From contig JBHIEG010000017.1 of NCBI GenBank assembly GCA_046760505.1, forward strand, positions 1 to 39,285: 39,285 nt of DNA. Direction: 5' to 3'. Below, piece by piece: positions 3,418-37,873 of the stretch. Positions within the stretch are counted from its first letter, which is position 1. Each line of letters starts with the position of its first letter. The position numbers and the translations under genes were made by a program. The notes beneath the pieces are model-generated. The model was not told the DNA's origin and ran no database searches. It saw nothing but the letters and a program-made list of their open reading frames with translations. This DNA is from CAYFZR01 sp046760505 [NCBI: Candidatus Hydrothermarchaeota archaeon] (GTDB taxonomy: Archaea; CAYFZR01).

Positions 3418-3699
3418 CTAGTAATAACCTTTATTCTTTAACCAGTTTGCCTGCGGTTTTGTGTATCTCCAGATAACGTCTCCTTTTTCGTTTTGAAATT
3501 CCCAAGGCTTTATAACTACTAGATCCCCCTCTCTAATCCAGATTTTTTTCTTGAGCTTTCCGGGGATCCTACATATTCTCACCACGCCATCAACACAATC
3601 CACTTTTACCCGATTAGAACCTAGCATTTGAATAACGAATCCGAGTATTTCTCCTTCTTTTGGCAATCTTACCCTAATAACCTCTGTTTCTTCTTCCAA
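3418..3699 (-). CDS. Translation initiation factor aIF1A
   Basis: This is the S1-like OB-fold initiation factor homologous to eIF1A, acting in the ribosomal A site during start-codon selection. The 93-aa product contains the family pattern EGEILGFVIQMLGSNRVKV, then CRIPGKLKKKIWIREGDLVV and WRYT. I choose TTG at 3699 because GGGAGG ends 7 nt upstream. A TTG at 3714 would put that SD inside the gene. The start lies within the end of tyrS (26-nt overlap). The stop is TAG, so amber is a genuine terminator here. Confidence 0.94.
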   Translation of the reverse strand: MEEETEVIRVRLPKEGEILGFVIQMLGSNRVKVDCVDGVVRICRIPGKLKKKIWIREGDLVVIKPWEFQNEKGDVIWRYTKPQANWLKNKGYY

Positions 3700-4654
3700 A
3701 CTGTTGCCTCCCAAGTTTATCCCTTACATTTCCTACAATGGATTCTATGTATTCAAAGCAAGAGTTCTTAAGATCTACTGGATGGAGCTTGCCCTCTGTA
3801 TACATCCTTTCCAACTCCTCGTAACTTTTTAGTGTTAGATCTCCGCCGTACTTTTCAGGTCTTTTTATTTCAATCTCATTAAATTTCGGGAATATTTGAT
3901 ATTTAAATATCTCCATGATCGGATTGCCTGCAGATATTTTCGGAGGACAGAAGGATTTTTTTATTTTTTCCTCGATTTCATCCGGGGAATCATCAACGCT
4001 TATGAAGTTATTTTTACTTGAAGACATCTTTTCTTCTCCGTCTAAGCCATGTATTAATGGCAAGTGGATGCATACTGGAGGTTTAAACCCTAGTTTCGGG
4101 AGATTGTCTCTTGCGAGCATGTGTATCTTTCTTTGATCTATCCCTCCTACTGCTACATCTACATCTAAAACTATCATATCTACTACCTGCATTAAAGGAT
4201 AGATCACCTGAGCAACCTTTGGATCTGCTTCCTCCCTGCTTATCGTATCCATGCTCCTCCTTGCCCTTTTAATCGTAGTTTCTAATGCTAGCTTATAAAC
4301 GTATGTGGAGTAATCCTCTGAAAGTTGGATGTCAGATCCCAGCAAAAAATCCGTTTTTTTGGGATCCAGTCCCATTGCAAGAAAACAATCCTTGTTGTAA
4401 TCTGCTATTTCTCTAATCTCTTTTAATTTACCTTTTTTATTCAAATAAGCATGTAAATCTGCGAGTAAAATTATTATCTTAAAATCAGCCTTCTGTAGGT
4501 CAATCATCTTATTTATGGTAAGCATATGTCCCAAGTGAATCTTTCCACTTGGTTCGTACCCTACATAAGCAATTTTATCCTTCTTTTTGATTACTTCTTC
4601 AAGTTCTTTCTGGGTTATAATTTCTATCGTGTTCCGCCCTATTAGGTCTATCAT
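3674..4654 (-). CDS. tyrS: Tyrosyl-tRNA synthetase (archaeal type)
   Basis: This class I synthetase charges tRNA-Tyr. It shows the substrate-pocket segment YVGYEPSGKIHLGH (HLGH at 40-43), the TyrRS-type YPLMQVVD followed by GGIDQRK, and KMSSS at 210-214. The 326-aa length is typical of archaeal TyrRS, which lacks the bacterial S4 domain. It is the first gene of the minus-strand operon. A TATA-like element lies about 27 nt from its ATG, and GAAGGT abuts the ATG. The short basic C-terminus (GRRNRGY) is the part overlapping aIF1A. Confidence 0.95.
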   Translation of the reverse strand: MIDLIGRNTIEIITQKELEEVIKKKDKIAYVGYEPSGKIHLGHMLTINKMIDLQKADFKIIILLADLHAYLNKKGKLKEIREIADYNKDCFLAMGLDPKKTDFLLGSDIQLSEDYSTYVYKLALETTIKRARRSMDTISREEADPKVAQVIYPLMQVVDMIVLDVDVAVGGIDQRKIHMLARDNLPKLGFKPPVCIHLPLIHGLDGEEKMSSSKNNFISVDDSPDEIEEKIKKSFCPPKISAGNPIMEIFKYQIFPKFNEIEIKRPEKYGGDLTLKSYEELERMYTEGKLHPVDLKNSCFEYIESIVGNVRDKLGRQQFGRRNRGY

Positions 4655-9488: not shown

Positions 9489-10304
9489 ATGCTAAATCTA
9501 TCTTTTGCAATTTTTATTTTAATTCTGGCCTCTTTCTTTGATGTTAGATACAATAGGATACCGAACTGGATAACTATGCCCGCGATACCAATATCCTTTA
9601 TTCTGGGTTCCTCTGATAAAAACTGGAAGATTAACGCTCTCCTTTCATTAATAACTTGCCTTTTACTCTTCAGGATAGGTATGTTTGGTGGAGACTCTAA
9701 GTTGTACCTTTCATTATCTCTTCTGAATTTTTTTCCCTTTTCCTTTTTTTACGTCCTTTTTTCCATGCTGGTGGGATACTCTTTAATTAGAATGATGAGA
9801 GATTTAAGGCATAATGACATGAATCTTCTGGCGAATTCTCTTTCTTTTTCTGTAATACTTGTATCTCTTTCAATTAACTTTGTTTTAGGTTTTATCATGG
9901 CATTTTTGTTAAAATATTCCATAAAGACGGGAAACAAACTTTTTCTTGCATTCATCTCCCTTTCTTCTGTCCTGATATTAACTCAGGAAAATCTGCTCAT
10001 AATTCCGACAATCCTCTCTTCTTTTTTCCATGAATCACTGGAATCGTGGGTCGATGTATGTGATGTAGAAGAGGGCACCATGCTTTCAAAGAGTTTTAGC
10101 AGAAGCGGTGGATGGATAGACCCGATTAAACCTTTCTCTTTCATAAAAAAGATTGATTTGAAGGCTTGCAAACCATTAAATTCTAGGGAAATTGAATTTT
10201 TGAGGAAAAATACAGATAAAGTACCTGTCTACAAACCGATTCCCCTGGCTCCATGTTTCCTTCTGGGAATTACGGTGGTTGTATGCTCGAATCCGTTCGC
10301 ATGA
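9489..10304 (+). CDS. Archaeal prepilin/preflagellin peptidase (aspartic, A24 family)
   Basis: This membrane aspartic protease removes class III signal peptides from pilins or archaellins. The two catalytic Asp residues sit in their usual contexts: D18 in FFDVRYNRIPNWIT and D69 in GMFGGDSKL. The 271-aa protein has about six to seven hydrophobic segments. A hydrophilic region at roughly 185-245 precedes a final PIPLAPCFLLGIT membrane segment, resembling the archaeal A24B C-terminal domain (IPF-like motif). It overlaps the next gene by 22 nt and follows the pilin-like gene by 4 nt, so the peptidase is likely dedicated to this operon. Confidence 0.9.
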   Translation: MLNLSFAIFILILASFFDVRYNRIPNWITMPAIPISFILGSSDKNWKINALLSLITCLLLFRIGMFGGDSKLYLSLSLLNFFPFSFFYVLFSMLVGYSLIRMMRDLRHNDMNLLANSLSFSVILVSLSINFVLGFIMAFLLKYSIKTGNKLFLAFISLSSVLILTQENLLIIPTILSSFFHESLESWVDVCDVEEGTMLSKSFSRSGGWIDPIKPFSFIKKIDLKACKPLNSREIEFLRKNTDKVPVYKPIPLAPCFLLGITVVVCSNPFA

Positions 10305-10666
10305 TCGTAAGCGGATGTACCGTAATTTTTGCATTATTTTTCGTTGGGTTATTTCTTAATGATCTTTTAATGACCTACTCAGGAATATTTTTGCTAGATT
10401 CTATTTCAGATTCGGTTGATATGGTGAGGACATCAAACATAGATTATTTGGAGGTTAATTTAGATCTTCCTGAAGATCTTAATTTTGTTCTCGTCGGAGA
10501 AAAAAACAAACTTGATCTAAAAATAAATGGATTTATCAACGAAATAGAACTAGATAAAAAATTAAAGTGTAAAATTTACAATTTTACCGTCTCTAAAGGT
10601 AGTTTATATATAATTAAAGATGAGGAGGTATGGCTAGGTGCTTCTCTCAGACGAATTAATTCATAA
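10283..10666 (+). CDS. Small single-pass membrane protein, possible minor pilin (127 aa)
   Basis: No family is recognised. With the ATG at 10283 (GGTGGT just upstream), residues 7-27 form one hydrophobic helix ending in LFLNDLL. A beta-rich extracytoplasmic domain of about 100 residues follows. An alternative ATG at 10253 would add ten residues inside the peptidase gene. The start lies 22 nt inside the peptidase gene and the end overlaps the next gene by 29 nt. The topology and operon suggest a pseudopilin-like component. The LFLNDLL junction resembles IVFNDLI in the third member of the set (10927), hinting at duplication. Confidence 0.66.
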   Translation: MLESVRMIVSGCTVIFALFFVGLFLNDLLMTYSGIFLLDSISDSVDMVRTSNIDYLEVNLDLPEDLNFVLVGEKNKLDLKINGFINEIELDKKLKCKIYNFTVSKGSLYIIKDEEVWLGASLRRINS

Positions 10667-10940
10667 ATTCTTCTCAGGAATATTCATACTAACAGTGAGT
10701 TCAGTTTTCACTCTATGTTCATTCAACTTTCTCAATCTCCTTTTATTTGAACCGTGCCAAGAATCGATAATCCTGAAAGGAGAGTATTTTGAGAAGTACT
10801 CTTTAAACTTCAATGTTTTAATGTCTAATCCTCAGAAGAATGATTCAAGCGGACTTCTTTTTAGGTATCCTGTCGTTGTCTACAAAAATTCAACCTACTC
10901 CGTAGATGAAATTCAGGTGAAAATTGATGCAGACTCTTAA
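10638..10940 (+). CDS. Small single-pass membrane protein, possible minor pilin (100 aa)
   Basis: I do not recognise a family. The start is GTG at 10638 with a strong GGAGGT 8 nt upstream, inside the end of the preceding gene. The first 15 residues are polar, followed by a hydrophobic stretch (FFSGIFILTVSSVFTLCSF and on) and an extracytoplasmic tail of about 60 residues with possible N-glycosylation sequons (NDS, NST). It overlaps the next gene by 14 nt. The layout matches the other small members of the cluster. Confidence 0.62.
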   Translation: MLLSDELIHKFFSGIFILTVSSVFTLCSFNFLNLLLFEPCQESIILKGEYFEKYSLNFNVLMSNPQKNDSSGLLFRYPVVVYKNSTYSVDEIQVKIDADS

Positions 10941-11328
10941 TATGATGTCTACGGTTCTTATCATACTCTTTTCTTTCCTTTGTATAGCTATCGTGTTCAA
11001 TGATCTAATTGAAATAAATACAGATACGGATGATATAGAGAAGTTACACTCTTTAGTCGTTATATTTAATGAACCTGTTTTATCCATTGAAAATGCTGAG
11101 TATTCATTTTTAGATCTGGTGAGTGTCTGTTATCCTAGTAGAGTAGATCTGATTGAAGAGAAGGCAAAGGAACTAAAATCCAAGGTACCTTATGAATTCA
11201 CACTTATTCTTTTAGACGGGGACAAAGAGATCTTCAGAATTGGAAAAAATAAAGAGACATCCTCAATTTTTTTCAGAGAGAAAATCAAATCCACAAGCAA
11301 TGAATTGGAGTTGATTCTAGTTGTCTGA
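10927..11328 (+). CDS. Small single-pass membrane protein, possible minor pilin (133 aa)
   Basis: No family is recognised. The ATG at 10927 is preceded by AGGTGA with 6-nt spacing; an in-frame TTG at 10924 is less likely. Residues 5-24 are a hydrophobic helix leading into IVFNDLIEINTDTD. The remaining domain of about 100 residues is mixed alpha/beta with one Cys, and a central segment predicts a helix (IEEKAKELKSK). The end overlaps the next gene by 8 nt. The membrane-exit motif resembles that of the 10283 gene, suggesting the two are paralogues. Confidence 0.64.
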   Translation: MQTLNMMSTVLIILFSFLCIAIVFNDLIEINTDTDDIEKLHSLVVIFNEPVLSIENAEYSFLDLVSVCYPSRVDLIEEKAKELKSKVPYEFTLILLDGDKEIFRIGKNKETSSIFFREKIKSTSNELELILVV

Positions 11329-12115
11329 GAGAGGCTGGACTAACTTTGGCTGGACAATTTTCTTCGTTCTCATCTTATTAGGTTCTATTTCTCTCAAGAG
11401 TATAGTTACATCATGTATCTTGGAAGAGAAAGAGGTACAAAATAAAATTGAAAAAATTCACCAGACCATCATAGTAGAAAGGGCTAAAATCTCGAATACA
11501 CTTTTTTTTAATTCTTTAATTGCCTCTAGAGACATGGCCTGGCAGGGAAAAAGACCAAGTGAACTCTACAGGAAAATAAAAGATATGTGTAATCTTACCG
11601 TTGAATTCAGGGAAATTTACTCTGGAAAGTACATGGGTGCATTTGAGGTGTCGTCATCAAAAATTTTGGAGGAAGAGAACTATAAACATAGGATTAAAGT
11701 ATCTAGAAAGATACCAGCGCGTTTCTTATTGTTATACAAATTTTCAAGTTTCTTCAATGCTCACAACCAGTTGTACAAGCTAACAGAAGGGTCTTTAATG
11801 GTAGCAGGTCCGGCAACAACTAAAAGTATTGCGCAAGAAGAGATATCTTTTGCTTTAAATGGCTATGAGAAGGTATTGGAACTGACAACACCATTTGAAT
11901 GGGAAATGAGTGGGAAAATTCTTTCATTTCATAAAGAAGTGGTAATAGTAGATGAAATTCCTGTAACGATTATTTCTGCGACTGTGAAATACAACATAGT
12001 ATTAATAGATCCGTATTTCAAGACAATACCTAGTAAAATCCCTTTCGATATGCTAAAATACAGGATAAATGGAGAAGAAGGCATAGTAAAGACAGTTACA
12101 ATAGAAACCTGGTAA
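11321..12115 (+). CDS. Single-pass membrane protein, largest member of the pilin-type operon (264 aa)
   Basis: No family is recognised. The TTG start at 11321 sits inside the stop region of the preceding gene, with GGAG 10 nt upstream. Residues 12-30 are a hydrophobic helix (TIFFVLILLGSISLKSIV), followed by a coiled-coil-like stretch (about 35-60) and a large predicted beta-rich exterior domain. Position as the last and largest single-pass protein in a prepilin-peptidase operon suggests a tip or scaffold pseudopilin. It lacks an obvious Gly-based cleavage site, so it may instead be a non-processed partner. Confidence 0.64.
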   Translation: MSERGWTNFGWTIFFVLILLGSISLKSIVTSCILEEKEVQNKIEKIHQTIIVERAKISNTLFFNSLIASRDMAWQGKRPSELYRKIKDMCNLTVEFREIYSGKYMGAFEVSSSKILEEENYKHRIKVSRKIPARFLLLYKFSSFFNAHNQLYKLTEGSLMVAGPATTKSIAQEEISFALNGYEKVLELTTPFEWEMSGKILSFHKEVVIVDEIPVTIISATVKYNIVLIDPYFKTIPSKIPFDMLKYRINGEEGIVKTVTIETW

Positions 12116-13914: not shown

Positions 13915-14631
13915 TCAATGTCTTGAACCAATACTTATTCCATTTTCGTTTATCGTAAATTGATTCCTAGATGTCGGGTGATTGGTTCCTCGCATCTTTT
14001 TTATCGTGAGATGCCGCTTACCGGTTTTAGAATCAAGTTCGAGGAGAATCGTACCATGGGTTACGTATTCTTCTACGCCGAATTTACTCAGTTGTTTGCT
14101 TCCTTCCTCAATTTCGGTAACCAAAAGAGTTGTACAATTCAGGTTCTCTAACAAACTACATAAGCGGAGAATTTCTCTCCTAATTGTGAACTCGTCCTCG
14201 AACTGGAGACCTAAGGCAGTTACAGAGTCTATCGCAACCCTTCTTGCATTGTACCTGTACACCAAGTCCTGTATCCCATCCATTAGGGAGTCTAGATCGA
14301 AAGGTCTAATTTGAACATGTCTTTCATCGCTGGGCAATCCAATTCTCGTAGCAGAGGCATCAATTATCGCGAGTTTACCATCATCTTCCAACTTTTGGAA
14401 ATGCCAATTAAACCTTAATAGGTTTTGTCTGATAAAATAGGGTCTTTCCTCAAGAGTTACGAGTATCCCGGGTTCATTATACTCTGTAACTCCGTTATAT
14501 AGGAACTGAGCGGCGAGAATCGATTTGCCAGTTCCGGTAGTGCCAGTGATAAGTACAGTTCTTCCTCTAGGTATGCCTCCTTCCAGCATGTCATCCAATC
14601 CTCGGATACCGAACGGGACTCTCTCAATCAT
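13915..14631 (-). CDS. Single-domain KaiC/RadA-like ATPase (first copy)
   Basis: This 238-aa RecA-superfamily ATPase is of the archaeal KaiC-like group (COG0467). Walker A is GTTGTGKS (30-37), the paired catalytic glutamates are E61-E62 in TLEERP, and Walker B ends in VAIDS (D135). It has one KaiC domain, not the two of cyanobacterial KaiC, and no long tail. A paralogue lies at 16678; both share the GxPRGxT entry, the SLEERP/TLEERP region and the KKMRGT/RKMRGT end. It is downstream of the speH-speE operon across a 77-nt gap with a T-run. The role of these archaeal ATPases is largely unknown; a sensory or signalling role is the usual inference. Confidence 0.9.
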   Translation of the reverse strand: MIERVPFGIRGLDDMLEGGIPRGRTVLITGTTGTGKSILAAQFLYNGVTEYNEPGILVTLEERPYFIRQNLLRFNWHFQKLEDDGKLAIIDASATRIGLPSDERHVQIRPFDLDSLMDGIQDLVYRYNARRVAIDSVTALGLQFEDEFTIRREILRLCSLLENLNCTTLLVTEIEEGSKQLSKFGVEEYVTHGTILLELDSKTGKRHLTIKKMRGTNHPTSRNQFTINENGISIGSRH

Positions 14632-16223: not shown

Positions 16224-16685
16224 ATGTTAAGTCTTCCAAAAAAAGCAACTTTGGTCTCTGGATCCGCTGAAGGAGCCACAAAATTAAATGCACTGGACAA
16301 CGCGTTAATAGATGCAGGTATAGGAGATTTCAATTTAATCAAGGTATCAAGCATACTCCCGAAAGGTACGGTAATCGTTGATCTGCCAAAAATAGAGGCA
16401 GGCACTTTGGTCCCATGTGTACTCGCAAAGAGAATCTCAGATACTCGAGGTCAAAAAATATCCGCATCTATAGTAGTGGCGCTATCAGAAAACGGTATGG
16501 GCGTGATAGCGGAAAATTCCGGAGCAGGCATATCAAAGGGAGAGAGTTATGAGAAGGCTCTAGAGGCTGCTAGGAATATGCTTATGAGAAGAGGCCTAAA
16601 GTTAAAAGAAATTAGGCATGTCTCAAGAGAGCACACAGTAGAAAATATAGGAGCAGTTGTAGCCGCTCTCGTCTTTTTCAGGTAA
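16224..16685 (+). CDS. pdaD: Pyruvoyl-dependent arginine decarboxylase
   Basis: This enzyme converts arginine to agmatine, the first step of archaeal putrescine synthesis. The 153-aa proenzyme has the self-processing Ser-Ser pair at 42-43 in KVSSILPKGT; the second Ser becomes the pyruvoyl group. Downstream family motifs are GTLVPCVLA, a conserved GMGVIAENSG and a C-terminal EHTVENIGAVVAA. It diverges from speH-speE, and its stop overlaps the 3' end of the second KaiC-like gene by 8 nt in convergent orientation. With agmatinase (4706) and SpeE the whole route to spermidine is encoded in this window. Confidence 0.96.
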   Translation: MLSLPKKATLVSGSAEGATKLNALDNALIDAGIGDFNLIKVSSILPKGTVIVDLPKIEAGTLVPCVLAKRISDTRGQKISASIVVALSENGMGVIAENSGAGISKGESYEKALEAARNMLMRRGLKLKEIRHVSREHTVENIGAVVAALVFFR

Positions 16686-17397
16686 CAATCTTTGCTGGTT
16701 TTACCTCCAATCCCTTGTCCCCTATATGGAGAATATACCTAGAAGTTGCGTGTCTCGTTCCTCGCATTTTCCTCACAACAATAGTTCTACCTACCTCATC
16801 ATCTAAAAAAAGATGAATTACTCCCCTGAAAACATATTCTTCCAAACCAAATTCTAGAGAATCTTTTATTTGTCTTGGCATCTCTAAGGTAATAAGAGAA
16901 GTGCAACCAAGATCGATTAAAAGGTTGTTGAGTCTTAGCATGGCCTTTCTCGTCTCAAATTCGTCTCTCATCTGTAACTTCAAAATCGTTGCAGAATCAA
17001 TCGCAACCCTTTTGGCATCGAGTTCATTGACCACCTGACCAAGTTTTCTGCACAAGATGTCCAAATTGAATCCTACATCTAATGCATATTTGTCCTTGCT
17101 AAGAACGCCCAGTCTGGAGGCGGAAGCATCTAATATTACCAGTTTTCTTTCCTCTTCAATTTTTTCAATATTCCATCCAAATTTTAGCATATCTCTCTTT
17201 ATCTCGGCTGGTCTTTCTTCCAAACTTACGAATATTCCGGGCTCGTTGAATAATTGAGCCCCATTGTAAAGAAATTGCATGCAAAATATGCTTTTTCCAG
17301 TTCCTGGTCCCCCAACAATTGCTATGGTTGAGCCTCTTGGAATGCCGCCTCCAACTATCTCGTCGAAGCCAGGAATGCCGCTTTTTACTCTAGCCAT
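16678..17397 (-). CDS. Single-domain KaiC/RadA-like ATPase (second copy)
   Basis: This 239-aa paralogue of the 13915 gene has Walker A GGPGTGKS (29-36), catalytic E60-E61 in SLEERP and Walker B VAIDS (D134). Its C-terminal IVVRKMRGTRHATSRY matches TIKKMRGTNHPTSRN in the other copy. Its 3' end overlaps the arginine decarboxylase stop by 8 nt on the opposite strand. The two ATPases thus bracket the polyamine genes. A role in sensing or regulating polyamine level is a guess from location. Confidence 0.9.
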   Translation of the reverse strand: MARVKSGIPGFDEIVGGGIPRGSTIAIVGGPGTGKSIFCMQFLYNGAQLFNEPGIFVSLEERPAEIKRDMLKFGWNIEKIEEERKLVILDASASRLGVLSKDKYALDVGFNLDILCRKLGQVVNELDAKRVAIDSATILKLQMRDEFETRKAMLRLNNLLIDLGCTSLITLEMPRQIKDSLEFGLEEYVFRGVIHLFLDDEVGRTIVVRKMRGTRHATSRYILHIGDKGLEVKPAKIVT

Positions 17398-21403: not shown

Positions 21404-23287
21404 ATGATAGATTACAGAGAGATAGATTATAGAGAAATTGGGCTAAAGGTTGGAATAGAAATACACCAAAGGCTAGATACGCATAAATTATTCTGCAGAT
21501 GCTCATCCCATATGCGAGAAGAAAGTCCAACATTTGTTTTCTCTAGAAAGCTCAGACCGGTAACAGGAGAACTTGGAGAAGTGGATCCGGCCGCTTCTTT
21601 TGAATACTATAGAGACAGGATATTCGAATACCAGAGCTTCGAGGGAGAAACCTGCTTAATAGAGGCAGATGAAGAGCCTCCTTTTCCGGTAAATGAAGAG
21701 GCGTTGGATATAGGGCTAGAGGTTGCTATGTTGCTGAATGCAGATATTCCAAACGAAATACATGTAATGAGAAAGACGGTGATAGACGGAAGCAACTGTA
21801 CTGGTTTCCAGAGAACATTGATAGTAGGAATGAACGGTTATCTAGACTCAAGTCTAGGAAGAGTAGGTATTACAAACATATGTTTAGAAGAAGAATCAGC
21901 CAGAATAGTTTATGCTGGATTTAAGGAAGCAAAATACAAGCTGAGCGGGCTTGGCATTCCACTCATAGAGATAGGTACCTCTCCTGACATAATCACGCCC
22001 GAACATGCAAGAGAAGTAGCGGAGAAGATTGGAATGTTGTTAAGGTCTACAGGAAAGGTAATGAGGGGAATTGGAACAATCAGACAAGATTTAAATGTTT
22101 CCATTGAGGGAGGAGCGAGAGTAGAAATTAAAGGGGTGCAAGAACTTAAACAACTGGCAAAATACGTTGAATACGAGGCGAGAAGACAGCTTTCGCTCTT
22201 AGAAATTCAAGATAGTTTGAAAGATAAAACTTGGAAAGAGCCTGAGATAGTAGATGTAACTGAAATATTTGAGGATACTGAGTGTAAAGTGCTTAAAAAT
22301 AAAGACAAAATACTCTCCATAAGTTTATCGGGATTTTCTGGTATTTTGAAAAAAGAATTATGTCCTGGCCATACGTTTGGAAAAGAATTGTCTTATTATG
22401 CAAGGACATATGGTGTTCCAGGAATTTTACATACCGATGAAGATTTAGAAAAGTACGGAATAACGAATGACGAAAAAATTGAATTGTACAGGTCCACAGG
22501 TTCAACGGAAAATGATTGCATAATTTTGGTAGCAGGAAAGGAGAATATCGCAAGAAGAGCCTTGGAAACAATTATAGACAGGGCGAGCAACGCCTTCTCA
22601 GGCCCATTGGAAGAGACAAGATCTGCAAATCCAGATGGAACAACCTACTATACGAGACCTTTACCCGGTGCTCAAAGAATGTATCCTGAAACAGATGTTT
22701 CTCCCATTGTAATTACAAAAGAACGTCTGGAAAAAATTGCTAGATCTTTACCAGAGTTGTTTGAAGAAAAACTGAAAAGATTTATGAAAGATTATAACCT
22801 TAATAAAGAATTAGCAAGATCTTTGATCAGATCAGATAAAACAAATCTCTTTGAGGAAATAGTTAATAAATATGGCGTAAATCCCACTTTGGTTGCTACA
22901 ACCCTCACAAATACATTAGTTACATTAAAAAGAGAGGGATTTGCGGTAGATAACTTGAATGAAAATCATTTTTTCGAGATATTCGAATCATTTTCCAAAG
23001 GCATGTTTAGCAAAGAGGTACTCCCAGAGGTTGTTGCGTATCTTTCATCTAATCCCAGCAGAAGTGTAAAAAATTGTTTAGAGGAACTTAGATTAAAGAT
23101 GCTCAGCGAAGAAGAACTGGGAAAAATCATAGAAGAGATCCTCGAAAAAGATAAAGAAACATTAAAAGAAAAAGGCGAAAAATCATTTGGGTTTTTCATG
23201 GGCAAGGTTATGGAGTTAGTAAGAGGAAGAGCAGATGGTAAGGTAGTGAGCAGGTTGCTCAAAGAGAAGATCGAGGAGAGAGTTTAG
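21404..23287 (+). CDS. gatE: Glutamyl-tRNA(Gln) amidotransferase subunit E
   Basis: GatE binds Glu-tRNA(Gln), phosphorylates the glutamate and amidates it with ammonia from GatD. The N-terminal amidotransferase domain shows GLKVGIEIHQRLDTHKLFC and HVMRKTVIDGSN. An inserted GAD domain (about 270-400, CPGHTFGKELSYYARTYGVPG) is the mark of the archaeal subunit and is shared with bacterial AspRS. A helical and YqeY-like tail follows. The start is the ATG at 21404, with GGTG upstream, giving 627 aa; a GTG at 21398 is less likely. The N-terminus repeats DYREI twice. The stop is TAG. Confidence 0.96.
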   Translation: MIDYREIDYREIGLKVGIEIHQRLDTHKLFCRCSSHMREESPTFVFSRKLRPVTGELGEVDPAASFEYYRDRIFEYQSFEGETCLIEADEEPPFPVNEEALDIGLEVAMLLNADIPNEIHVMRKTVIDGSNCTGFQRTLIVGMNGYLDSSLGRVGITNICLEEESARIVYAGFKEAKYKLSGLGIPLIEIGTSPDIITPEHAREVAEKIGMLLRSTGKVMRGIGTIRQDLNVSIEGGARVEIKGVQELKQLAKYVEYEARRQLSLLEIQDSLKDKTWKEPEIVDVTEIFEDTECKVLKNKDKILSISLSGFSGILKKELCPGHTFGKELSYYARTYGVPGILHTDEDLEKYGITNDEKIELYRSTGSTENDCIILVAGKENIARRALETIIDRASNAFSGPLEETRSANPDGTTYYTRPLPGAQRMYPETDVSPIVITKERLEKIARSLPELFEEKLKRFMKDYNLNKELARSLIRSDKTNLFEEIVNKYGVNPTLVATTLTNTLVTLKREGFAVDNLNENHFFEIFESFSKGMFSKEVLPEVVAYLSSNPSRSVKNCLEELRLKMLSEEELGKIIEEILEKDKETLKEKGEKSFGFFMGKVMELVRGRADGKVVSRLLKEKIEERV

Positions 23288-23330
23288 TTAAATCCTTTGA
23301 GATTTTCAGGAAAAATTTTATATAGTGCTT

Positions 23331-23353
23331 CCTCCCGAAACCACACGGGGAGG
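23331..23353 (+). promoter_or_regulatory. Inverted repeat containing the SD of the damaged secreted-protein gene
   Basis: CCTCCC (23331-23336) and GGGAGG (23348-23353) pair over 6 bp with an 11-nt loop. The right arm is part of GGGGAGGT, the only SD here. A TATA-like ttttatata (23317-23325) would start transcription near 23345-23350, which would leave the left arm outside the message. The hairpin may therefore be only a DNA palindrome. Confidence 0.35.
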
Positions 23354-23355
23354 TC

Positions 23356-24219
23356 ATTAAAAAATTAAGCTTTATATGTTTCTTGGCCCTAAGCGTTTTA
23401 ATCGTCCAGAGCATATTTGTGGCTACAGTTTATGCACAAAATCCAGAAAAGCCAATTGTTATTCTTTCCAGTTCTATTGATTTTGGTCTTGCTCGAGACT
23501 TCTTCAGATTTCTTAGAGGTAAGGGTGTGGAATTGATATACACCGCTGCGCCTAACTTTGATAAATACAGGGGAGAGAACTTCATCATTATTCTAGGAGG
23601 CCCGGATGCCTACGAGGGTGTTGGAGAAATAGTAAGGGAATATTTAACAATAGAAGCAAAACTGGTTAAGAAAAGAAGGCAACCGAAAGATGTTTGTTAA
23701 GAACGGGCAGGTAATTTGTATTATAGCAGGCTCAGACAGGGATATGACCAAAAAGGCAGAAGAAGAGAACAAAGAAAAAATTATAGGCATTCCAGTTAAG
23801 GCATTCCCTGATTTCGCAGATATTGTTCGAGTCACTGTTGCACCAGAGGGTCTTGAGGTTGTTGTCTTTACCATACAAACCGCAGATAAGATTCCTATTA
23901 TGCCAAGCACAGATCCTGAATTTGACTTAAGCTACACAATAGCATTTGATCTAGATAAAAACAGCGCTACAGGAAAAACAGGTCCATTGTACAACGATAT
24001 AGGCGCAGACAAAGAAATTTTCCTTGAATTTAAAGATTTGAGATGGAAATGCGGCTATCCTGGGAAATATCCGAAAATACAGTTACAATAAAGATTCCAA
24101 TCGATGATCTCTCATTGTCATTTGATTGGATAGTTCGATCTCAAAGAGGTAATTACATGGATATAGTCCCAAGTGAAGGACATAGTTCCTTCCGTTCACC
24201 AAAACTGCCCCCATGGTAA
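23356..24219 (+). pseudogene. Secreted surface protein, start lost and frameshifted twice
   Basis: A signal peptide (KKLSFICFLALSVLIVQ to VYAQ) opens in frame with ATT at 23356, where an ATG is expected after GGGGAGGT. The reading frame runs to 23699. The next segment, FVKNGQVICIIAGSDRDMTK, needs the adjacent frame from about 23653-23690 until about 24060. The end (VTIKIPIDDLSLSFDW to PPW) needs the first frame again, stopping at 24217-24219. The joined protein has an S-layer-like half with ILGGPDAYEGVG. A second half carries a DxDKNSATG motif and IGADKEIFL like archaeal cell-surface beta-sandwich domains. Two compensating frameshifts plus a lost start fit a decaying gene; sequencing error is possible. 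Confidence 0.72.
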
Positions 24220-24234
24220 AATTGGAGGTTGCCT

Positions 24235-25443
24235 ATGAGCAAAAAGAAGGTTGCAGTTGTTACGTTTGTACTGATTCTATATACAATATCAGCGGTACAT
24301 GGACATATAGCACCCAACGTAAAAATAACTGGAGGGACAAAGGCTCAAAGAGAAAAAATACAAAAAGCAGTAGAAGAAATAGCGAAAAAATCTCCTCATG
24401 CAAGAAATATCTTAAATAGAACAAAAAACCTTGGTAGAAATGTAACAATTCATAATGTGCCTAACAGCAACACAACGATAGGGGAAGCAGAGCCTGGAGG
24501 CGATGAAGTCTGGATAGATCCCGAGGATTGGGATAAGTTTAAATTGAAAGTGGGTAGGAATAAAACGGGCAAAGCGAATGAATCTTTTTCTTTAGGACTA
24601 GTAGTGCTCCACGAATTAAAGCATATCCTAGGAGACAACGAAACAGAAACTTTGAAACAGATAAACAAAGTCCGTAATGAAACTGGTCTTCCGAAAAGGC
24701 ATCATTACTATTTGGAAGGGAAGAACAACACCCTCTATTTAAAGTTTTGTGATGGGTCTACGTTAAACTTTACCGAGGTCTTTGTAGTCGTGGTAGTAGA
24801 TCCAACGGACGATCCAGTAATGGTAACAGTTGTAGAAACTCCAAAAGTAGTAGACATATCTCCAAAACCTGGCGCTACCGATGTATCCATCGAAGAGTCT
24901 ATAATGATCATTTTCTCCGTACCCATGAATAGAGAATCGGTAATGGAAGCGTTAGAAACCTATCCGGAGATGGAATTCTCTCAGGTTTCATGGCTGGATA
25001 GCAAGGCTTTGATTTTGACTCCAAGAAGGTTAGAGCCAGGCATCACCTACGTTGTAAGCATAGGAACTCAAGCAAAAGACACGAAAGGCAATCACCTGGA
25101 AACGCCTTACACATGGAAATTCAAAACTGAAGAGATTGAAGTCGAAAAAGATATCATTCCTCCTAAGGTTGAAATATTAAGCCCCAAGGCAGGAGAGATC
25201 GTAATACCTCCTTTCATAATAGAAGCTGATGCAACAGACAACGTTAAAGTTGTTCGAGTAGAGTTTTACTTGGATGGTGAGCTTATATTTGAAGACTAGA
25301 CTCCTCCTTATTCAATGGAGATCGTGCCTGAGATGATTCCTCCTGGCGCACACTTCGTGCATGCAATTGCCTATGACTCATCAGGAAACAAAGGGATCTC
25401 AGGAGAAGTAGAATTCCTCCTTGAATTGGAGATTATCGAGTAA
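24235..25443 (+). pseudogene. Secreted HELKH zincin with Ig-like domains, interrupted by an amber codon
   Basis: The ATG at 24235 follows GGAGGT with 5-nt spacing, and a signal peptide (residues 1-23) precedes the mature start. HELKH at 126-130 is a zinc-protease motif. NETE follows, then NKVRNETGLPKR, a layout that recalls M91-type (NleD-like) peptidases. A Big_5-type Ig domain (about 205-300) and a second Ig domain follow. TAG at 25297-25299 (codon 355) cuts the second Ig domain. Without it the frame runs on through TPPYSMEIVP to TAA at 25441, 402 codons in all. The protease part is intact, so a truncated product could still be secreted. The family link is my inference. Confidence 0.68.
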
Positions 25444-25473: not shown

Positions 25474-26940
25474 TTACTTCAAAAGTTCTTCCACTTCTTC
25501 TTCTAATAATTTTTCAGATTCTTTCAAAGAATTAATCATATCTTCTATTATTCTTGTGTATCCAAAGATTCTTTTCTCCATTTTTTTTAATGAATCCTGC
25601 ATGACTTCCTTGCTGGGTCCTCCTATAATTTTCTTTCTCGATACACTTTTCTTAGGATCCATTATATCATCCAATTCTTCTCTGCTCAGAGAAATATTCT
25701 CTTTCTTTAGAATATCGTTTACGATCTCGATGGACATTTCTGAAGAAAAACCCTTCTCCAATGATTTTGTCACGATTTCTCCAACCAGCCTGTGAGATGT
25801 TCGAAACGGCAATCCATACTTATCCACAAGATAATCCGCTAAGTCGGTTGCGGTTGAAAAATTAGATTTAGCCAATTCTAAGGCTCTTTCTTCATTCACT
25901 TTCATTGTCTCTATCATTTCCTTAGTTAAATCTATCAAATCTTGTGTTACATAAAAGGAATCCCAAAGAAATCTGCTAACTTCCTGCAAATCTCTGTTGT
26001 AGCTCATGGGAAGAGATTTAATTATCGTTAAACTTGCGTAAAGATTGCCCAGTACTCTCCCAACTCTGGCCCTACAAATTTCTGCTACGTCAGGATTCTT
26101 CTTCTGAGGCATTATGCTGCTGGTAGATGAATATCTATCAGAGAGTTCTATCAATCCAAATTCATAGGCACTCCATAAAATCAATTCCTCAAAAATCCTG
26201 CTCAAATTAATCGAAATGGAAGCCAATATAGATAAAATCTCTGAGATGAAATCTCTTGATGCTACAGCGTCCATTGAGTTTTCCAATAAGCCATTAAATC
26301 CCAGGAGTTTGGAGGTATATTCTCTATCTATAGGAAATCCTGTTGTTGCCAGTGCACATGAACCTAGGGGAGATAGGTTTACTCTTTTATAACACTCTAA
26401 CAACCTCTCTAAGTCTCTCTCAAGCATAGAAGAATACGCATGAAGGTGATGTCCTAGAGTGGTAGGTTGTGCATGTTGTAAATGAGTATACCCTGGAATA
26501 ACTGTATCTAAGTGATTCCTCGCCTTATCATTTAATGTACTTATCAAATTCATTAAACTAAGGGATGTTTGAACTATTTTATCCCGAGCAGCCATTCTAA
26601 GATCAGTTGCAACCTGATCGTTTCTACTTCTTGCGGTATGCATCTTTTCTCCTTCTTTTCCTATTATTCCTATAAGTTCTTGCTCTATTACTATGTGTAT
26701 GTCTTCCTTTTTTACATCAAGATCAAAATCCTCGTATTTTTTTTCTTTTAATTCGAGTAAACCTTTTATAATTTTTTTAGCAGTTTCTTTATCTATTATC
26801 TTAGTTTTATTGAGCATTAAAACATGAGCTATCGATTGAAATAGATCGTACTTGAATATCTCTTCATCAATGTCCAAAGAAGACGTAAATCTTGCTACTC
26901 TTTGATTCATATCTTCTCCAAGTCTTCCTTCTCTCAACAT
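25474..26940 (-). CDS. argH: Argininosuccinate lyase
   Basis: Last step of arginine synthesis: argininosuccinate to arginine and fumarate. The 488-aa protein shows the fumarase-superfamily signature SSTSSIMPQKKNPD (catalytic Ser loop), preceded by HTARSRNDQVATD and HLQHAQPTTLGHH. The ATG at 26940 overlaps the preceding gene's stop by 7 nt (ATGTTGA), so it is translationally coupled to the HTH gene upstream. Arginine made here is also the substrate of the decarboxylase at 16224. Confidence 0.96.
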   Translation of the reverse strand: MLREGRLGEDMNQRVARFTSSLDIDEEIFKYDLFQSIAHVLMLNKTKIIDKETAKKIIKGLLELKEKKYEDFDLDVKKEDIHIVIEQELIGIIGKEGEKMHTARSRNDQVATDLRMAARDKIVQTSLSLMNLISTLNDKARNHLDTVIPGYTHLQHAQPTTLGHHLHAYSSMLERDLERLLECYKRVNLSPLGSCALATTGFPIDREYTSKLLGFNGLLENSMDAVASRDFISEILSILASISINLSRIFEELILWSAYEFGLIELSDRYSSTSSIMPQKKNPDVAEICRARVGRVLGNLYASLTIIKSLPMSYNRDLQEVSRFLWDSFYVTQDLIDLTKEMIETMKVNEERALELAKSNFSTATDLADYLVDKYGLPFRTSHRLVGEIVTKSLEKGFSSEMSIEIVNDILKKENISLSREELDDIMDPKKSVSRKKIIGGPSKEVMQDSLKKMEKRIFGYTRIIEDMINSLKESEKLLEEEVEELLK

Positions 26941-27782
26941 ATTATTCCCCTTTTCTGTATAGAAGGAAACTTTTCTAGGTTTCTCTTTAGAACTCTTTTC
27001 ATACCCTTATCTGACATATCTTTGATATAAAACCTTATGTTAACATTTTTCTTTCCTTCCTTCCATTGGGTTTTGGTTGTGGTAACGTCAGAAATCTCGA
27101 GAGTTTGCCGGAGGTCCCTAAGATAGTTTCCGGCATCATCTTTCCTGTGGGTAACAAAGTCGAATACAATCTTATTTCCTCTTTTCCTACATTTTCTCTT
27201 AAATAGAGCAAAAAGATAAGACTTGGCAAAATTTTCATCTTCCTTTATCCAATCAGGTATTCTCATGTCATAAACTCCTGCTGTCTTAAATATATGCGAA
27301 GTCACATGAGGTATTTCTACCCAACCATTAAAATCCAGATTAAACATGTTTGCCAATATATTTCCCAATTCATGAGATGTATTGCAAGAATATATTATTC
27401 TTGGAGAAAAGGAATACCCGGCTAGATAGGCGAATATCCTACACCATTTTTCATTCCTTATATCTATCGGAAAAGCAATATCCATTATCTTACCAGTTTT
27501 TCCCCACCTTATCTGTCTTATTGATTTTTGAACATCGTCTAATTTAATTTCCGAAAGATTGCACAGAACACTGAGATGAAAGCCACTCAAAAAACTCTTA
27601 TGGAATTTACCTTCTCTTTTTCTACCCCCATTTTTTAATACACTTACGGTGCTTTGTCTAATACCTAGTTTTTCCGATATAGAACGGGTATTGTTGGACG
27701 CATGATTGAACAGCATGTTTCTCGTGCTTTCTTCTAAAAAGAGATATAAATTTTGATCAAACACAGAACTCAAGGTCAACAT
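26934..27782 (-). CDS. HTH protein with a possible degenerate LAGLIDADG-like fold
   Basis: This 282-aa protein is not assigned to a named family. Residues 33-55 form a helix-turn-helix (SISEKLGIRQSTVSVLKNGGRK). The middle and end resemble two LAGLIDADG-type halves: YLAGYSFSP (119-127) and SYLFALFKRKC (188-198), the latter followed by a fold pattern ending in LRQTLEIS. The catalytic acidic residues expected at these motifs are missing, so DNA cutting is unlikely. Bacterial WhiA is a precedent for LAGLIDADG plus HTH as a regulator, with domains in the opposite order. It overlaps argH by 7 nt and follows an AT palindrome. A regulator of argH or itself is inferred. Confidence 0.65.
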   Translation of the reverse strand: MLTLSSVFDQNLYLFLEESTRNMLFNHASNNTRSISEKLGIRQSTVSVLKNGGRKREGKFHKSFLSGFHLSVLCNLSEIKLDDVQKSIRQIRWGKTGKIMDIAFPIDIRNEKWCRIFAYLAGYSFSPRIIYSCNTSHELGNILANMFNLDFNGWVEIPHVTSHIFKTAGVYDMRIPDWIKEDENFAKSYLFALFKRKCRKRGNKIVFDFVTHRKDDAGNYLRDLRQTLEISDVTTTKTQWKEGKKNVNIRFYIKDMSDKGMKRVLKRNLEKFPSIQKRGIIC

Positions 27783-36862: not shown

Positions 36863-37873
36863 ATGGATGATAAAATAAGGTTTGTCATATCCGGAATCGC
36901 AGGAGTTTTGATTCTATCTATTTTTCTTTACTATTTAGGGATTGAAAGACTGATTGAATCCATAAAAAATGCATCATTAACCTCTATACTCATAGGTTTA
37001 TCCTTTTATCTCGTATTTTTTGTTGTGAGAAGTTTAAGATGGCAGATTATCCTAATTCCGATAAAAAACAGGACTAGTTTTCAAAATCTCTTTACCATAA
37101 CCATTCTTGGATGGTTTACGAACTCGATAATTCCAATAAGAATAGGGGAGTTGGTAAGAGCGGTTCTATTAAAAAACAGAGAAGACATCTTAATATCTGA
37201 AGGACTCTCTTCCATAGTTATTGAGAGGATATTTGATCTTGCCGGCTTAGTAGTAGTAGGTGGAGCCATGTTCTACTTTTTGCCAGACGATGCGAGCATT
37301 CCTAAAGAGTTTGCAAGTTTCATTCTTTTGGTTCTTGGATTCATCGCATTTAGTATTTTATTATTACTTCTACTGAATTATCGGTATGATGCTTTAATTT
37401 TTCCAGTTAGAAAATTTGTTTCGGTGGTTTTTTGGTTTTCTAAAGGAATTAAAGATCGCATTCTCGAAAATCTTACTTTAGCAATAAATGCGATGTTGAG
37501 TATTTGTAAGAGTAAATACATGGTGCCCATTTTCTTGCTCTCAATTATAACTTGGTTGTCACCTTGTTTTATGTATTTATACTTCTTCCGTGCCTTTAAT
37601 ATTAATTTTCACTGGAGCGTTATTTTTTTGGGCAGCGTTTTGGTTACTTTAACATTCTTGATTCCTAGTGCACCAGGCTATTTAGGAACATTTGAGGCTG
37701 CGTGGGTATTTGTTTATCTTGGTCTTGGAATTGCGGTTGAAAAGGCATTACCAGTTGGTTTAGCAGTTCATTTCACGACGTTGTTTTTCATCATAGTACT
37801 TGGATACATTGGGTTAGTTATATATGGTATAGGACGAAGAGATGTGTTTGGAATGATAAGTGAAAGAATATAA
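36863..37873 (+). CDS. Flippase-like integral membrane protein (second copy)
   Basis: A 336-aa paralogue of the gene at 5544. Shared marks include an early VVRSLRW, PIRIGELVRAVLLKNRE, IVIERIFDLAG and a late LIPSAPGYLGTFEAAW. About eight membrane segments. The ATG at 36863 has GGTGA 6 nt upstream. The neighbouring GT4 gene (29-nt gap) and methyltransferase make handling of lipid-linked sugars or glycolipid precursors likely, as proposed for the family near archaeal glycosylation genes. Confidence 0.87.
   Translation: MDDKIRFVISGIAGVLILSIFLYYLGIERLIESIKNASLTSILIGLSFYLVFFVVRSLRWQIILIPIKNRTSFQNLFTITILGWFTNSIIPIRIGELVRAVLLKNREDILISEGLSSIVIERIFDLAGLVVVGGAMFYFLPDDASIPKEFASFILLVLGFIAFSILLLLLLNYRYDALIFPVRKFVSVVFWFSKGIKDRILENLTLAINAMLSICKSKYMVPIFLLSIITWLSPCFMYLYFFRAFNINFHWSVIFLGSVLVTLTFLIPSAPGYLGTFEAAWVFVYLGLGIAVEKALPVGLAVHFTTLFFIIVLGYIGLVIYGIGRRDVFGMISERI

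Follow-up and report, generated by a model that had tools for sequence, protein, structure and literature searches.

Two neighbouring genes in the 39,285 nt stretch of archaeal DNA analysed here (hereafter the window) are interrupted by a faulty start codon, by a pair of frame changes and by a premature stop codon. Together these defects are most simply read as the marks of recently inactivated genes, and we put the probability that both genes were inactivated recently and are now decaying neutrally at roughly 0.6. The first (gene 1, 23356-24219) appears to encode an S-layer-like secreted protein, and the second (gene 2, 24235-25443) a protein that would likewise be secreted and that combines an HExxH motif with Ig-like domains. 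The main rival to decay is a local error of sequence or assembly, and programmed recoding, separate small genes and phase variation are weighed after it.

Structure of gene 1

Gene 1 consists of three overlapping open pieces on the + strand, A (23356-23697), B (23654-24088) and C (24034-24219), where B is read one base on from A and C lies again in the frame of A. The initial annotation of this DNA had proposed two frame changes that cancel each other, and its intervals agree to within about 30 nt with the two stretches in which the open frames overlap, 44 nt for A and B (23654-23697, +) and 55 nt for B and C (24034-24088, +). Piece A holds a signal-peptide-like N-terminus and the first part of an S-layer-like domain, and its frame ends at a TAA (23698). 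Piece B holds the rest of that domain (VICIIAGSDRDMTKKAEEE) and, judged by eye, perhaps the start of a second one; its frame ends at a TAA at 24089. Piece C contributes 61 codons and a final TAA (24217) and is weakly coding.

Codon statistics follow the same succession of frames. Over 23356-23650 the frame of piece A has a log-odds score of +23.3 (98 codons) against -24.9 and -32.2 for the other two, and over 23698-24030 the frame of piece B reaches +36.1 (110 codons) against -49.2 and -27.9. Between 24091 and 24216 the frame of piece C is weakly favoured, at +1.1 (42 codons) against -5.7 and -15.7. A segmentation by codon usage, for which 17 of the window's genes served as the training set, places the two switches of frame at 23694 and 24063 and then continues past the TAG of gene 2 at 25297. 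The open frame of piece C is by itself modest evidence, because 61 codons read in a wrong frame of the training genes are free of stops in 71 of 11,730 placements; the second junction rests on this open frame together with weak codon statistics.

The start of gene 1 is defective as well. A Shine-Dalgarno-like GGGGAGGT (23347-23354, +) is followed by ATT (23356-23358, +) where a start codon is expected, at what appears by eye to be the onset of the signal-peptide-like stretch. This ATT had already been remarked upon, and we confirm that piece A has no in-frame ATG, GTG or TTG from the stop at 23323 up to a TTG at 23383. The spacing between GGAGGT and the ATT is 1 nt, whereas in gene 2 the distance to the ATG is 5 nt. 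A single altered base may therefore not account for the whole start defect. Beside the start, at 23359, lies a run of six A. Further 5', a TATA-like box read from the sequence (TTTTATATA, 23316-23324, +) is centred about 27 nt from the ribosome-binding site, which suggests that gene 1 may have its own promoter after gatE.

Homologues of gene 1

At locus L095 an ORF (300-965) aligns with piece A at 38% over 98 columns (E 2e-10) and with piece B at 32% over 63 (E 9e-6), both E-values being those of single comparisons. The A-like and B-like parts of this protein lie in one single frame, which argues that the first frame change cuts what is one protein. Homology thus supports the first junction, and it likewise supports the TAG of gene 2, which is spanned by a Big_7 match. 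A second ORF, at L094, matches a short motif of piece B (65% over 20, E 7e-6), again in a single frame, and gave no BLAST match to piece A. Both are distant relatives, and the comparison reaches as far as the first junction. Piece A matched in 2 of 156 genomes (L113 and L114); the ILGGPDAYDGIGEIVES motif of piece A is present in L113, whose contig ends there, and the motif ILGGPDAYEG(V/I)GEI of piece A is common to L095 and L113.

Gene 1 also has a likeness to S-layer proteins in piece B, where the stretch IIAGSDR..TKKA aligns with the end of PF05124 (S_layer_C), a match that lies below the family cut-off (13.6 against 23.9 bits). We take PF05123 to be a second S-layer-like family to which gene 1 may be likened. 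The main S-layer proteins are longer than gene 1.

Broader searches with the pieces returned little else. Piece B had no homologue in 294 genomes at E 0.001 or in 398 genomes at E 0.01, and its match in 1 of 28 genomes at E 0.01 reads by eye as a PRPP synthetase and is ascribed to chance. At E 1 it matched in 4 of 29 genomes. The matches at L094 and L095 look real, and those at L096, which reads as an IMP dehydrogenase, and L097, an unrelated sequence, were set aside by eye. No homologue of piece C was found: at E 2 five of 29 genomes matched, one with what looks like ribosomal protein L6 (L099), one with an unrelated ORF (L101) and three with sequences containing internal stops. Viral contigs gave no confirmed match for piece B or gene 2.

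Gene 2 and its in-frame stop codon

Gene 2 (+ strand) is preceded by a conventional arrangement of GGAGGT, 5 nt and ATG (24224-24234, +), and it would encode an N-terminus that looks by eye like a signal peptide, a metallopeptidase-like region with the motif HELKH, and two Ig-like domains, Big_5 (residues 201-298) and Big_7 (residues 310-375). Codon 355, within Big_7, is a TAG (25297-25299, +), after which 47 further codons lead to a TAA at 25441-25443. This tail (25300-25443, +), pointed out in the initial annotation as continuing coding sequence, does score like intact genes, with a codon log-odds of +12.1 over its 47 codons; a wrong-frame stretch of that length is open in 207 of 12,206 placements within the training genes.

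Domain matches lead to the same conclusion about the tail. The match to Big_7 (PF17957) spans the TAG, covering profile positions 1-68 of 70 (E 1.3e-14), and stops at profile position 47 when the tail is left out. A solved module, 3pdd_A, likewise aligns across codon 355 (residues 305-385, E 2.1e-9). In its domains gene 2 resembles secreted proteins that combine Big_5 and Big_7, both of which it carries well above the Pfam cut-offs (60.7 against 23.6 bits for Big_5, PF13205; 55 against 24.1 bits for Big_7). Its N-terminal region, with HELKH, stays below the cut-off for Peptidase_M91 (PF14891; 22.1 against 25 bits), and no NCBIfam model matched near any cut-off.

When the read-through sequence of gene 2 was used as query, a threshold of E 10 gave matches in 8 of 30 genomes and one of E 0.01 in 1 of 29, and among the matches listed all fall within residues 197-398, the Ig-like part. 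The N-terminal region gave weak matches at E 0.01 in 2 of 398 and 1 of 294 genomes, none of them a convincing homologue; L105 (helicase-like by eye) and L106 look like chance, and L104 contains internal stops. An intact orthologue of gene 2 is accordingly unproven, the relatives found appearing to share only its Ig-like domains.

Clustering of the lesions

The four lesions (the start, the two frame changes and the TAG) span 1,941 nt. Under uniform scatter over 37,065 coding nt the chance of such closeness is 0.0006, or 0.006 for three lesions when the start is left aside. No comparable lesion was detected by codon-usage segmentation or Pfam in the other ~35 kb of coding sequence, and the claim that the rest of the window is free of such lesions is thereby supported, short of proof.

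Elsewhere in the window the segmentation departs from the ORF frame only at gene ends or within open ORFs. Four such departures (9489-9974, 10664-10831, 11323-11421 and 37316-37870) fall in membrane-protein-like or small ORFs, all of them open, and are read as putative effects of composition. In the Pfam scan, which covered 30 of the 38 other listed ORFs, 27 matched and none required a frame change. A histone-deacetylase-like ORF matches its profile only from position 73, and the first 117 residues of a PyrK-like ORF are without a Pfam match.

Recent decay

The initial annotation had left decay, phase-like switching and programmed recoding side by side. Decay fits best among these. The repeats expected of switching were not found at the frame changes or the TAG, and for recoding there is no in-phase -1 slippery site and TAG serves as an ordinary stop. 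Selection on the pair may have lapsed for both genes together, after which disabling changes would have piled up in each while the flanking housekeeping genes stayed intact. Decay would also account for the lesion-bearing genes being neighbours and both secreted-looking. As the genes now stand, the product of gene 1 would be poorly initiated and end after piece A. That of gene 2 would have 354 residues and lack the end of the last Ig-like domain; it might still be made and partly work.

A pseudogene is expected to carry several changes that disable it when compared with an intact homologue, and changes of this kind are found at the first junction of gene 1 (relative to L095) and at the TAG within the Big_7 domain of gene 2. 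Any decay must be very young, or else the lesions are absent from the organism, because coding character is undiminished: the score per codon is 0.328 in piece B and 0.258 in the tail of gene 2, compared with a mean of 0.225 for the 17 training genes, scored in-sample.

There is a partial precedent in the chitinase of Pyrococcus furiosus (PF1233/PF1234), which is presumably secreted. There too an archaeal gene, one for a polymer-degrading enzyme, is broken up by a change of frame, and another genus has a relative of it in one piece; the cause is a one-nucleotide insertion, which is likely why the wild type fails to grow on chitin (PMC3575233). The authors leave open whether the mutation is very recent or the frameshifted product has been selected for (PMC3575233). 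That case involves one insertion and was tested by genetics (PMC3575233), whereas the present one comprises two putative frame changes, a faulty start and a stop in the neighbouring gene. If the lesions are real, they offer an ordinary but clean snapshot of how two surface-protein genes that lie side by side are lost together, in an archaeal lineage that is poorly sampled, while their coding signal is still fresh. If they are not, they caution against resting claims of recoding on one assembled contig.

Alternative readings

The same lesions would be produced if the genes were intact in the organism and wrong bases had entered a poorly covered or strain-mixed stretch of metagenome sequence. 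We regard such a local error as doubtful, though still a serious contender. Fresh coding bias fits decay and error alike, and all the pieces except C have it in full. Moreover, the window may be a metagenome record, and strains that differ at variable surface genes could concentrate mixed-strain error at just such loci. One study expects a frameshift gene that lacks frameshifted relatives, yet passes validation by BLASTp, to reflect a sequencing error and not a genuine indel (PMC3711429), and it is on this account that we do not rate error lower. That said, four lesions within so short an interval, with none detected in the remaining coding sequence, are not what error scattered at random would leave; since the tests applied to the rest of the coding sequence showed no break in it, the error would have to be local. 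The initial annotation had gone further and held that random error should not cluster in this way. The clustering itself stands, but the argument against error was too strong, because errors limited to one thinly covered or strain-mixed stretch would cluster as well. Against error, neither frame change lies at a homopolymer longer than four, of the nine longest homopolymers listed (runs of 8 A or T and of 7 C) eight sit within other, open ORFs, and the lesions mix substitution-like and indel-like types.

Programmed recoding would require two ribosomal frameshifts in gene 1 and readthrough of the UAG in gene 2, by pyrrolysine or otherwise, and we consider it improbable. The open frames do overlap at both changes, coding sequence does persist past the TAG, and recoding is known in archaea (PMC8211752). 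According to the same text, which also mentions viral cases, frameshifting has rarely been demonstrated in archaea (PMC8211752), and because of this rarity each archaeal candidate deserves such a check. In that text the -1 programmed frameshifting of fucA1 of Saccharolobus solfataricus joins two overlapping frames, the overlap being 40 nt (PMC8211752), against 44 and 55 nt in gene 1. The resemblance goes little further: fucA1 is described there with an in-phase A-AAA-AAT slippery site and a putative stem-loop, whereas gene 1 has no in-phase heptamer, and the fucA1 shift is -1 whereas the first shift of gene 1 is in the + direction (PMC8211752).

A scan for -1 sites found no XXXYYYZ heptamer in the first overlap (23654-23697), where the change is of + sense. 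The second overlap contains a single one, GGGAAAT at 24062, whose phase does not suit a -1 shift from B. Nor does the first junction show conservation of the kind expected of programmed frameshifting, as L095 (for A and B) and L094 (for the B motif only), both distant relatives, are single-frame. Readthrough, by pyrrolysine or as a general property of UAG, is equally hard to reconcile with the use of TAG as an ordinary stop. It ends 8 of the 38 other listed ORFs, and the TAG of gatE (23285-23287) follows residue 629, while the alignments to two solved GatE chains (1zq1_C and 2d6f_C) extend to residues 627 and 628, in each case close to the end of the solved chain itself. By these two observations UAG is a working stop here. 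Recoding would thus need two opposite shifts and a readthrough event in two adjacent genes. Its fullest form, in which both proteins are made through initiation at ATT, a + and then a compensating - shift and UAG readthrough, as joint control of a surface-protein pair, strikes us as extremely far-fetched.

It is very unlikely that A, B and C are separate small genes encoding individual polypeptides, with B translationally coupled from an ATG at 23690 that overlaps the end of A near its stop (23698). The initial annotation had allowed that the pieces might be separate intact genes in relatives, and this is not so for A and B in L095, where a single ORF joins them. Piece C, for its part, begins inside B and has no listed ORF, being shorter than the listing limit of 100 aa.

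Finally, phase-variable switching, in which surface genes are switched by reversible indels, is highly improbable: surface proteins are its usual targets (PMC3711429), and a six-A run lies beside the start of gene 1, but no homopolymer longer than four or short tandem repeat occurs at either frame change, nor such a homopolymer at the TAG, which is in any case no slippage product. Between 23200 and 25500 there are no tandem or inverted repeats, the repeats found being four two-copy families of 15-18 nt whose copies lie far apart, and no second copy that might act as a donor was found in the window.

Genomic setting

Translations and Pfam domains identify the window as archaeal housekeeping DNA. 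Its genes include those for MetRS, KH and RIO proteins, TyrRS, CTP synthase, SpeE/SpeD-type enzymes, GlmS, GatD, GatE, ArgH, Elp3, PyrD/PyrK, Nop5 and fibrillarin. Genes 1 and 2 lie, both on the + strand, between gatE (ending at 23287) and argH (opposite strand, ending at 25474). They are probably co-transcribed, given that the gap between the gene 1 stop (24217-24219) and the gene 2 ATG is no more than 15 nt.

The lineage of the window was approached through GatE and GatD. GatE reaches at most 49% identity among the matches listed (at least 80 loci) and at most 52% among 156 genomes of one phylum. Among 29 genomes of another phylum its full-length matches reach at most 50%, with partial matches at 53 and 55%. 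As a single query against genome contigs it retrieved no relative. GatD shows 57% identity with L034; for L065, where the match is shorter, the figure is 58%. In trees of both proteins the window forms a long branch without a firm phylum; it groups with L034 and L071 in the GatE tree, or within a mixed set of 10 rows when more loci are included, and with L034 in the GatD tree. By either protein, no close relative of the window lineage was found among the genomes searched.

Several other features of the window were observed. Upstream of argH, and like it on the - strand, a 282-aa ORF (26934-27782) is without a Pfam match at E 0.001. Between the genes for TyrRS and the RIO kinase lies a small ORF (about 3418-3720, -; VIRVRLPKEGEILGFVIQMLG...CRIPGKLKKKIWIREGD) whose product we take to resemble the archaeal initiation factor aIF1A. 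A prepilin-peptidase-like gene (Peptidase_A24 by Pfam) followed by four short ORFs (9489-12115, +) is perhaps a pilus-like or secretion cluster. Finally, two KaiC-like ATPase genes (13915-14631 and 16678-17397, -), the first assigned by Pfam and the second by resemblance only, stand on either side of the genes for spermidine synthase, AdoMet decarboxylase and arginine decarboxylase.
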